Assembly (NCBI RefSeq): GCF_011320075.1
Contig: NZ_JAANPA010000020.1
Location: 1 to 48,254, forward strand
Direction of reading: 5' to 3'
DNA length: 48,254 nt
Source: Sphingosinicella sp. YJ22
GTDB taxonomy: Bacteria; Pseudomonadota; Alphaproteobacteria; Sphingomonadales; Sphingomonadaceae
Shown: positions 33,539-35,320 of the stretch, piece after piece
Numbering within the stretch: the stretch's first letter is position 1
Layout of the letters: the number at the start of each line of letters is the position of its first letter
Made by a program: the position numbers and the translations under genes
Notes under the pieces: model-generated
Told to the model about the DNA's origin: nothing
The model's database searches: none
What the model saw: only the letters and a program-made list of their open reading frames with translations

Positions 33539-34408
33539 ATGTTCCGTGGCTCGATACCGGCTCTGGTGACGCCTTTTCGCGGTGAAGCGTTTGACGATGA
33601 AACTTTCCGGGCCCACGTCGAGTGGCAAATTACCGAAGGGAGTCATGCACTTGTCCCGATCGGTACGACCGGCGAACAGGCCACGCTGGATGTCGACGAG
33701 CAGCGCCGGGTGATCCGAATCGCGGTCGAGCAGGCCGCCGGGCGGGTGCCGGTCATCGCCGGCTGCGGCTCCAATTCGACCCGGACCGCGATCGATCACA
33801 TGAAGGCAGCGGCCGATTTCGGCGCGCGCGCCGCGCTGGTCGTCGTGCCTTATTACAACAAGCCCAACCAGGACGGCATCTACGCCCATTTCGCCGCCTG
33901 CGCCGAGGCGTGCCCGCTGCCGATCGTCGTCTACAACGTGCCGTCGCGGACTGTGGCGGACATCGGTATCGAGACATTGGGGCGCCTCGCGAAGATCCCG
34001 ACCGTCGTCGCGATCAAGGACGCGACCGGCAACCTGGCGCGAGTCACCGCCCAGCGCCTCGCCTGCGGCACCGATTTCGCCCAGCTCAGCGGCAATGACG
34101 ACATGGCATTGGGCTTCAACGCGATGGGCGGCGTCGGCTGCATCTCGGTCACCGCCAACGTCGCGCCCAAGCTTTGCGCGCAATTCCAGGAAGCGACCCT
34201 CAAGGGCGACTGGAAGAAGGCCCTCGAGCTCCAGGACCGCCTCTACCCGCTCCACGCCGCCCTGTTCAGCGACGCCTCGCCGGGCCCGACCAAATATGCC
34301 CTGAGCCGCCTCCGCGACTTCCCGATTGACCTCCGCCTGCCGATGACCCCCCCGTCAGAGGCCAGCCGCCGCGCGGTCGACGCGGCGCTGGAGCATGCGG
34401 GGCTCTAA
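33539..34408 (+). CDS. dapA: 4-hydroxy-tetrahydrodipicolinate synthase
   Basis: A 289-residue DapA. GTTGEQATL (about 43-50), YYNKPNQ (Tyr about 107), VVYNVPSRT (Tyr about 132 and Arg about 137), and AIKDATGN with the Schiff-base Lys about 161 are all conserved. It condenses pyruvate with aspartate semialdehyde in the lysine/DAP route. GGGAGG lies before the ATG at 33539. In many alphaproteobacteria dapA is followed by smpB, as here except for the intervening GIY-YIG gene. Confidence 0.97.
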   Translation: MFRGSIPALVTPFRGEAFDDETFRAHVEWQITEGSHALVPIGTTGEQATLDVDEQRRVIRIAVEQAAGRVPVIAGCGSNSTRTAIDHMKAAADFGARAALVVVPYYNKPNQDGIYAHFAACAEACPLPIVVYNVPSRTVADIGIETLGRLAKIPTVVAIKDATGNLARVTAQRLACGTDFAQLSGNDDMALGFNAMGGVGCISVTANVAPKLCAQFQEATLKGDWKKALELQDRLYPLHAALFSDASPGPTKYALSRLRDFPIDLRLPMTPPSEASRRAVDAALEHAGL

Positions 34409-34414
34409 GGACAT

Positions 34415-34442
34415 CCGTCATGCCAGCGAAAGCTGGCATCTC
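34415..34442. repeat. Left palindromic repeat flanking the GIY-YIG gene
   Basis: ATGCCAGC (34420-34427), loop GAAA, GCTGGCAT (34432-34439), with CCGTC before and CTC after. It is the inverted counterpart of the repeat at 34764-34790. Compared with that copy, stem positions TG/CA are replaced by CC/GG, both arms changing together. Confidence 0.8.
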
Positions 34443-34468
34443 TGCTCGGCTGGTCGGGGAAGGCTGCG

Positions 34469-34756
34469 GTGGTGAAAGGCGGCTGGACCTATGTCATGAC
34501 CAATAGGCCACGCGGCGTGCTCTACATTGGCGTGACAAGCGACCTGGTCGAACGGGTCGAACAGCATCGGCGAGGGGCAGGCTCGGCCTTCTGTCGCAAA
34601 TATGGCCTCAAGACTCTCGTTCTCGCGGAGGAGCACGCGACCATTGACGAGGCGATTGCGCGCGAAAAGGCCATGAAGGCCTGGAAGCGAGCGTGGAAGG
34701 TCGAACTGATCGAACGAGCGAACCCGGAGTGGCGGGACCTCTTTGGTGTGGTGTAG
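34469..34756 (+). CDS. Small GIY-YIG nuclease-family protein
   Basis: A 95-residue single-domain GIY-YIG protein. The first motif is WTYVMTNRPRGVLYIGVTSDLVERVEQHR (about residues 6-34), where TYV and YIG represent the GIY...YIG pair and the conserved Arg follows; FCRKYGLKTLVLAEEH and AIAREKAMKAWKRAWKVELIERANPEW continue the fold, with a candidate catalytic Glu in AREKAMK. The family cuts DNA and occurs in homing enzymes, UvrC and repair. Two GTG codons in a row (34469 and 34472) are possible starts. It stands exactly between two inverted palindromes and separates dapA from smpB, as an inserted unit would. Confidence 0.85.
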   Translation: MVKGGWTYVMTNRPRGVLYIGVTSDLVERVEQHRRGAGSAFCRKYGLKTLVLAEEHATIDEAIAREKAMKAWKRAWKVELIERANPEWRDLFGVV

Positions 34757-34761
34757 CGGAG

Positions 34762-34790
34762 GGAGACCCCAGCTTTCGCTGGGGTGACGG
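34762..34790. repeat. Right palindromic repeat flanking the GIY-YIG gene
   Basis: ACCCCAGC (34766-34773), loop TTTC, GCTGGGGT (34778-34785), then GACGG. In reverse complement it reads CCGTCA-CC-CCAGC-GAAA-GCTGG-GG-TCTC, against CCGTCA-TG-CCAGC-GAAA-GCTGG-CA-TCTC on the left. Confidence 0.8.
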
Positions 34791-34837: not shown

Positions 34838-35320
34838 ATGGCCCGCCCGCGTCCCACTGCTTTCGACAAGAAGAAGATCGTCGCCGAGAACCGGCGCGCT
34901 CGGTTCGATTATGCGATCGATGAGGTCTACGAGGCTGGGATCGCGCTGACCGGGACCGAGGTGAAGTCGCTTCGCTTCGGCGAGGGGTCGATCGCGGAGA
35001 GCTATGCCGAGGTCAAGGAAGGCGAGATCTGGCTGATCAACGCCAACATCCCCGAGTTCAGCCACGGCAACCGCCACAACCATGAGCCCAAGCGACCGCG
35101 GAAGTTGCTGCTCAACCACCGCGAGATCAGCAAGATGTTCGGCGCCGTCGCGCGCCAGGGCATGACGCTGGTGCCGCTGTCGGTCTATTTCAACGGCAAG
35201 GGGCGGGCGAAGGTCGAGCTCGCGCTGGCCAAGGGCCGCAAGGCGCACGACAAGCGCGAGTACCAGGCCGAGAAGGACTGGAAGCGCGAACAAGGCCGCC
35301 TGTTAAGGGAACATGGGTGA
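34838..35320 (+). CDS. smpB: SsrA-binding protein
   Basis: A 160-residue Smp[34 protein letters not shown] at the N-terminus, [35 protein letters not shown] in the middle and the basic tail [22 protein letters not shown] are typical. It carries tmRNA to stalled ribosomes in trans-translation. The ATG at 34838 fits the family ([15 protein letters not shown]); the frame upstream to 34784 lies in the repeat. The gene follows dapA and the GIY-YIG unit. Confidence 0.96.

Follow-up and report, generated by a model that had tools for sequence, protein, structure and literature searches.

The window, by which we mean the whole 48,254-nucleotide stretch of Sphingosinicella sp. YJ22 DNA that was analysed, contains a small nuclease gene placed between two inward-facing palindromic units, in the gap between two genes that we take to be dapA and smpB, following the names in the original prediction. 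The features are:

33539-34408, plus strand: dapA, left neighbour, outside the cassette (stop codon at 34406-34408; gene order conserved in relatives)
34415-34442, plus strand: left CGTC-type REP, with tag CCGTC, stem ATGCCAGC/GCTGGCAT, loop GAAA and tail CTC
34469-34756, plus strand: GIY-YIG nuclease gene, 95 aa, GTG start
34763-34790, minus strand: right CGTC-type REP, inward-facing, with tag CCGTC, stem ACCCCAGC/GCTGGGGT, loop GAAA and tail CTC
34838-35320, plus strand: smpB, right neighbour, outside the cassette, given for context only

The left unit reads CCGTCATGCCAGCGAAAGCTGGCATCTC (34415-34442, plus strand) and the right unit, on the minus strand, reads CCGTCACCCCAGCGAAAGCTGGGGTCTC (34763-34790). 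The original prediction described two 28-base units in opposite orientation around the GIY-YIG gene, splitting dapA from smpB, and it agrees with the DNA base for base: the units face inward, the cassette lies between the two genes, the inner stem and the GAAA loop are constant, as are the 5' tag and the CTC tail, and the units differ solely at stem pairs 2 and 3 (T-A to C-G and G-C to C-G, from left to right). Since both swaps are compensatory, pairing is preserved in both units. On both strands of the 48-kb window, these two units were the only GAAA-loop hairpins with at least five perfectly paired bases, and an Rfam search of the window matched no family. The left REP is separated from the GTG start by 26 bases (34443-34468), which leaves scant room for a promoter inside the bracket, so expression may need read-through from the insertion site.

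Both units fit the CGTC REPs in their tag, 8-bp stem, 4-base loop and short unpaired tail. In the sections of Di Nocera et al. 2013 (PMC3733652) cited here, this superfamily is described as carrying the tag CGTC (or TGTC/CCTC) at one end of a palindrome with a stem of 8-9 bp, a loop of 4-5 bases, A-T almost invariable at stem positions one and two, and a short unpaired tail mostly fitting CCA; the repeats occur in many copies per genome, chiefly head-to-head, and are known from five phyla, being commonest in Alphaproteobacteria. According to the same sections, no transposase genes accompany CGTC repeats, and the family apparently has no dedicated transposase. The units in the window share with them the CGTC tag, the 8-bp stem, the 4-base loop, the unpaired tail and the arrangement in head-to-head pairs, but differ in the tail, which is CTC instead of the usual CCA, and in holding a GIY-YIG gene inside the pair, whereas those sections report no associated transposase gene. 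A-T is present at stem pairs 1 and 2 of the left unit and at pair 1 only of the right unit, where pair 2 is C-G.

The units belong to a repeat that is multi-copy in the window's genome. The exact core CCAGCGAAAGCTGG occurs 6 times in the whole genome and the CGTC-REP pattern 34 times, against 0 for the reversed control in either search; the pattern reached up to 168 matches in one genome sampled. With two mismatches allowed, the core was not above control (93 versus 151), so the enrichment in the genome rests on the exact and structured searches. Head-to-head REP pairs that enclose no gene are also present in this genome, with about 50-120 bp between their units.

The window protein matches the Pfam GIY-YIG domain (E 1.3e-12), and Pfam found no second domain. 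Residues Y8, Y19, R29, H33, E66 and N85 are invariant in a 67-row alignment of the family, and we take them to be the catalytic positions of GIY-YIG enzymes. The AF2 model has a mean pLDDT of 95.6, and its nearest PDB folds by Foldseek were UPF0213 BH0048 (E 0.0023) and Slx1 (E 0.015), with weak E-values and a probability of 1.00; a profile search likewise matched two UPF0213 structures, and a family of phage homing endonucleases matched weakly (E 0.00032). Slx1 is structure-selective and cuts branched DNA, in agreement with the titles of its structure entries, and a fold resembling it would therefore be compatible with a hairpin or cruciform substrate. With the UPF0213/Slx1 group of GIY-YIG proteins the window protein shares a stand-alone domain of ~95 residues and the nearest solved folds (1zg2 and Slx1), a likeness drawn by domain and fold alone; it differs in that its gene is bracketed by REPs and apparently mobile. 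A defence role and a phage origin were considered and set aside: no PADLOC family matched, and at a cutoff of E 1e-5 none of 50,697 phage records did. In 2.9 million viral contigs, a pattern-limited scan found 25 relatives.

The linkage of gene and palindromes was assessed on the best 80 of 556 confirmed relatives in GTDB species contigs (at least 556 exist), picked on protein similarity alone, with 216 genes called mechanically in the same loci as controls. An enrichment of palindromes around GIY-YIG genes, as opposed to random occurrence, had been proposed from the window, and it was found: an inward pair of GTC-tagged hairpins brackets 51 of the 80 homologues and none of the 216 control genes (Fisher p 7e-37). 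A GTC-tagged hairpin within 300 bp was present at 72/80 homologues versus 12/216 controls (Fisher p 2e-46), and the density of tagged hairpins by the gene was 33 times that past 1 kb. Random positions were bracketed in 29 of 9,133 cases; together with the control genes, this rules out chance hairpins. When double-tagged forms were included, the counts rose to 52/80 bracketed and 73/80 with any hairpin, leaving seven of the 80 with no tagged hairpin nearby. A second set gave 18/29 bracketed and 27/29 with any hairpin (four of its loci are short and their scoring is possibly wrong), and the contigs from the viral collection 13/25 and 20/25, respectively. Bracketed copies came mostly from Alphaproteobacteria, and also from Massilia and a bin labelled Myxococcales; Lysobacter, Undibacterium and bins labelled Nitrospinota and Chloroflexota had tagged hairpins without an inward pair, as did most copies outside Alphaproteobacteria, and some bins in the homologue set may be contaminated.

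At the level of sequence, comparison across these loci showed that REP type follows protein clade and that left and right REPs match. Where REPs lie on both sides of the gene (60 loci), the two have the same loop length in 57 cases and the same inner stem in 52, compared with a shuffled mean of 21 for the stem. On a tree of 85 proteins (77 rows with a REP label; few columns, many forks weakly supported), 20 changes of stem type and 8 of loop length were counted, whereas 300 shuffles gave means of 36.9 and 16.7 and minima of 32 and 13, respectively. REPs with a CAGC stem and a 4-base loop dominate the window's clade, while those with a CTTGA loop fall in a separate Sphingobium clade and in a Rhizobium clade.

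The four GIY-YIG matches in the window's genome comprise one full cassette copy, one truncated copy and two more distant paralogues (contigs C28 and C45), the latter without a tagged REP in the loci read. The truncated paralogue (C24:18558-18674) adjoins a different REP type, CGGG/CTTGA versus CAGC/GAAA at the window's cassette, and is apparently the remnant of a decayed second cassette. A second family of CGTC REPs in this genome has a CCCGC stem and a CCAGCT tail and forms many head-to-head pairs ~56-117 bp apart (contigs C1, C2, C7, C8, C15, C18 and C36). REPs of this CCCGC family adjoin none of the four GIY-YIG matches in the loci read, and their presence without a matching GIY-YIG gene counts against a strict pairing of REP and protein.

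Co-occurrence of gene and repeats was then surveyed in 246 genomes of the window's order, with the REP count taken as the sum of two REP patterns. The GIY-YIG family was found in 134 genomes; at least 10 REPs, a count that takes in the REPs bracketing the genes themselves, were present in 67/134 gene-positive versus 10/112 gene-negative genomes (p 1e-12, uncorrected for shared descent). Fifteen gene-positive genomes match neither of the two patterns searched. A Y1 (RAYT-type) transposase, present in 48/246 genomes, gave no clear separation (21/48 with at least 10 REPs versus 56/198 without Y1, p 0.06). The 77 REP-rich genomes divide accordingly: 67 have the GIY-YIG gene and 21 have Y1, with GIY-YIG but no Y1 in 50, Y1 but no GIY-YIG in four, and neither in six. 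A resident RAYT was sought in the window's genome and rejected, no Y1 match (PF01797) being found.

Taken with the spread described below, we regard it as probable that REP, GIY-YIG gene and inverted REP make up a minimal mobile REPtron-like cassette whose protein serves as the cognate nuclease for the CGTC REPs on either side. Alternatively, the gene might be cargo carried between REPs that are moved by another enzyme, either a RAYT or some other transposase. Such an enzyme could account for the 10 REP-rich genomes that lack the gene, four of which have Y1, and the cited sections of PMC8266576 describe RAYTs as cutting and joining GTAG REPs. Yet it is a single gene family, not assorted cargo, that is flanked by tagged hairpins across Alphaproteobacteria, Massilia, Undibacterium, Lysobacter and the bins labelled Nitrospinota, Myxococcales and Chloroflexota; the protein tree tracks REP type; and neither the window's genome nor the 50 REP-rich genomes with GIY-YIG alone have a Y1 match. 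We therefore consider the cargo explanation unlikely.

The REP-gene-REP unit also spreads as a whole in multiple copies, as genome comparisons showed. Erythrobacter sanguineus has 23 REP matches, including seven pairs spaced exactly 343 bp, and over 365 bp the seven corresponding REP-gene-REP units share 94.8-98.1% identity, with unrelated flanks 100-400 bp out (mean gapless identity 27-28%). Early stops are present in three of the seven copies and one copy was unscorable, so that in both multiplication and decay the units behave like mobile elements. An 18-mer from the left end occurs 11 times in E. sanguineus, each time adjoining a REP, which places the ends of the Erythrobacter unit 20-40 bp past the REPs; in S. 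arseniciresistens the repeated unit extends farther beyond them, and the REPs are thus not always the unit ends. In loci compared up to 4 kb each side of the unit, close copies in four genomes (E. sanguineus, E. donghaensis, strain E2-1 and S. arseniciresistens) share a stretch of 403-507 bp around it, and strain E2-1 has two further short shared stretches elsewhere. As with insertion sequences, there are several copies with shared ends at unrelated sites (7 full copies and 11 left ends in E. sanguineus). An Rfam search of five Erythrobacteraceae loci returned two tRNAs and nothing else. By eye, the left flanks of the Erythrobacter copies (loci L221-L231) contain a preceding hairpin with co-varying stems, GTCCGC/GCGGAC and GGCAGC/GCTGCC; its right arm occurs without the cassette in two of seven matches (L233 and L237), and this hairpin may therefore be a target repeat.

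Sites without the gene were also found. An SmpB search over 60 genomes yielded 30 loci that were read, one being the window's own and 29 those of relatives. The insertion proposed in the original prediction is matched by empty sites here: the GIY-YIG gene is present in 0/29 of the relatives' loci, although dapA is present in 28 of them, in 27 no more than about 300 bp from smpB. In at least 11 relatives, the last aligned dapA codon and the smpB start are 5-6 bases apart. In other species, the dapA-smpB gap holds other inverted repeats (loci L118, L122, L125 and L139, with REP-like hairpins in L125), and insertion of repeats into this gap thus appears to be a general occurrence.

Similar comparisons could be made at other insertion sites. 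In seven Sphingobium plasmid records, four of them aligned, the gap between fnrL and a regulator gene is fully occupied, and the GIY-YIG gene is missing from five other aligned plasmids. Two of the gene-less plasmids, TomTYG74 and TomTYG64, have there a single palindrome, double-tagged and composed of the outer halves of the two REPs, with some bases changed in TomTYG74, and a solo palindrome of this kind stands in place of the gene in one of 11 Erythrobacter copies. The A. lipoferum unit lies between sufB and sufC, interrupting the pair, and four aligned relatives have no REP at this site. In Shinella, two aligned sites are occupied and another two, also aligned, lack the gene. The dapA-smpB, fnrL, sufB-sufC, Shinella and Erythrobacter comparisons revealed no clean target-site duplication, their empty sites not being close enough, and the searched flanks of the R. 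tumorigenes and CIAT894 plasmids gave no useful empty site.

Solo double-tagged palindromes were seen at loci L229 (E. sanguineus, contig C23), L155, L156, L081 and L105, with a near case in the window's genome (L014); at L229 and L156, each half corresponds to one of the paired REPs. They look like collapsed cassettes or REP pairs and could be either deletion scars or pre-insertion targets. In the plasmid of Sphingobium sp. TomTYG73 (L160), the gene has a one-base gap relative to three aligned neighbours and is not annotated, which looks like recent decay.

If the solo palindromes were targets, the enzyme could act in the manner of homing, cutting a pre-existing REP or double-tagged palindrome, after which gene conversion would copy the cassette with the REP arms as homology. 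GIY-YIG homing enzymes are known (in the cited part of PMC1564403), the protein has its weak match to a phage homing endonuclease family, and the solo palindromes do occupy the cassette site in two Sphingobium plasmids and one of 11 Erythrobacter sites. Against this stand the unrelated flanks of the seven Erythrobacter copies with their shared sequence outside the REPs and the REP-free A. lipoferum site in four relatives, and a solo palindrome is equally explicable as a deletion scar; we consider this mode improbable, to about the same degree as the cargo explanation or slightly more so. The window gene resembles GIY-YIG homing endonucleases in being a mobile nuclease gene, but differs from them in that no intron or intein was seen, there is no second Pfam domain, and unrelated sites are reached; copying into the cognate allele only does not agree with the unrelated flanks in multi-copy genomes. 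Hardest to sustain is a service to the host, in which the nuclease would resolve or trim cruciforms or transcripts of REPs, while selection would keep the REPs on either side as regulatory or terminator elements: the Slx1-like fold and a left REP so near the start codon that it may lie in the leader would suit this role, but patchy presence (134/246), spread in multiple copies and the stop codons that some of these carry look selfish, and the two further GIY-YIG paralogues of the window's genome are without tagged REPs.

The idea that the locus is a mobile cassette with a logic like that of REPs and RAYTs is thus upheld by the linkage, the sites without the gene and the multi-copy spread, from which we infer that the GIY-YIG protein recognises, cleaves and moves the REPs. 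As in REPtrons (RAYT, or TnpA-REP, with GTAG REPs), a small nuclease gene is bracketed by inverted REPs and gene-less REP pairs occur elsewhere; the difference is an HUH Y1 transposase and a GTAG tag there versus a GIY-YIG fold and a CGTC tag here. Because neither the Y1 enzyme nor the GTAG tag is present, the window's cassette would be a REPtron by logic, not a RAYT REPtron. The association suggests that the GIY-YIG protein is the missing partner of the CGTC REPs, a family described without an enzyme of its own in the cited sections of PMC3733652. No paper linking GIY-YIG proteins with REPs was found among the matches listed from open-licence PMC papers, preprints lying outside this search, and no open-licence PMC paper contains both 'GIY-YIG' and 'repetitive extragenic palindromic'.

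In the mechanism we propose for the cassette, the protein would recognise the GTC-tagged hairpin or cruciform and nick there or close by, after which the REP-bracketed segment would be copied into a new intergenic site by the host's replication or repair. We know of no GIY-YIG enzyme that joins DNA ends, so repair or replication must finish the reaction, and this is the weakest step. Head-to-head REP pairs with no gene between them would depend on the enzyme in trans, as non-autonomous versions comparable to the REPINs that RAYTs are believed to move, while deletion between direct repeats in the two REP arms could remove the gene and leave a single double-tagged palindrome.

Going further, it is conceivable, with a chance that we put somewhat below even, that a 95-residue structure-selective hydrolytic nuclease by itself mobilises both its own gene and the host's CGTC palindromes in trans. 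Such a GIY-YIG-only transposon might then, just as tentatively, represent a new class of DNA mobile element, one without a tyrosine or serine recombinase, a DDE or an HUH enzyme. If true, GIY-YIG would be a further enzyme fold behind DNA mobility in bacteria, and the spread of CGTC REPs across several phyla would be explained. Small genes annotated merely as 'GIY-YIG nuclease family protein' or 'excinuclease ABC subunit C' would likewise acquire a meaning. In practical terms, the putative cognate nuclease gene with its REPs is a clonable unit of ~400 bp, which makes the question of the CGTC REP transposase directly testable.

Homologues are also present in 33 plasmid records, and among the 10 that were read, seven are bracketed. 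The unbracketed copies are those of Planktothrix, R. tumorigenes and Photobacterium, the last two having one near-tagged or tagged hairpin downstream. On plasmid p1 of Planktothrix agardhii (L149), the homologue has no tagged hairpins and is flanked by DISARM drmA on one side and, on the other, by a gene whose annotation is that of an MmeI-type restriction enzyme. On A. lipoferum AZO_p3 (L151), the gene is bracketed not by single REPs but by two head-to-head REP pairs, one unit of which is imperfect.
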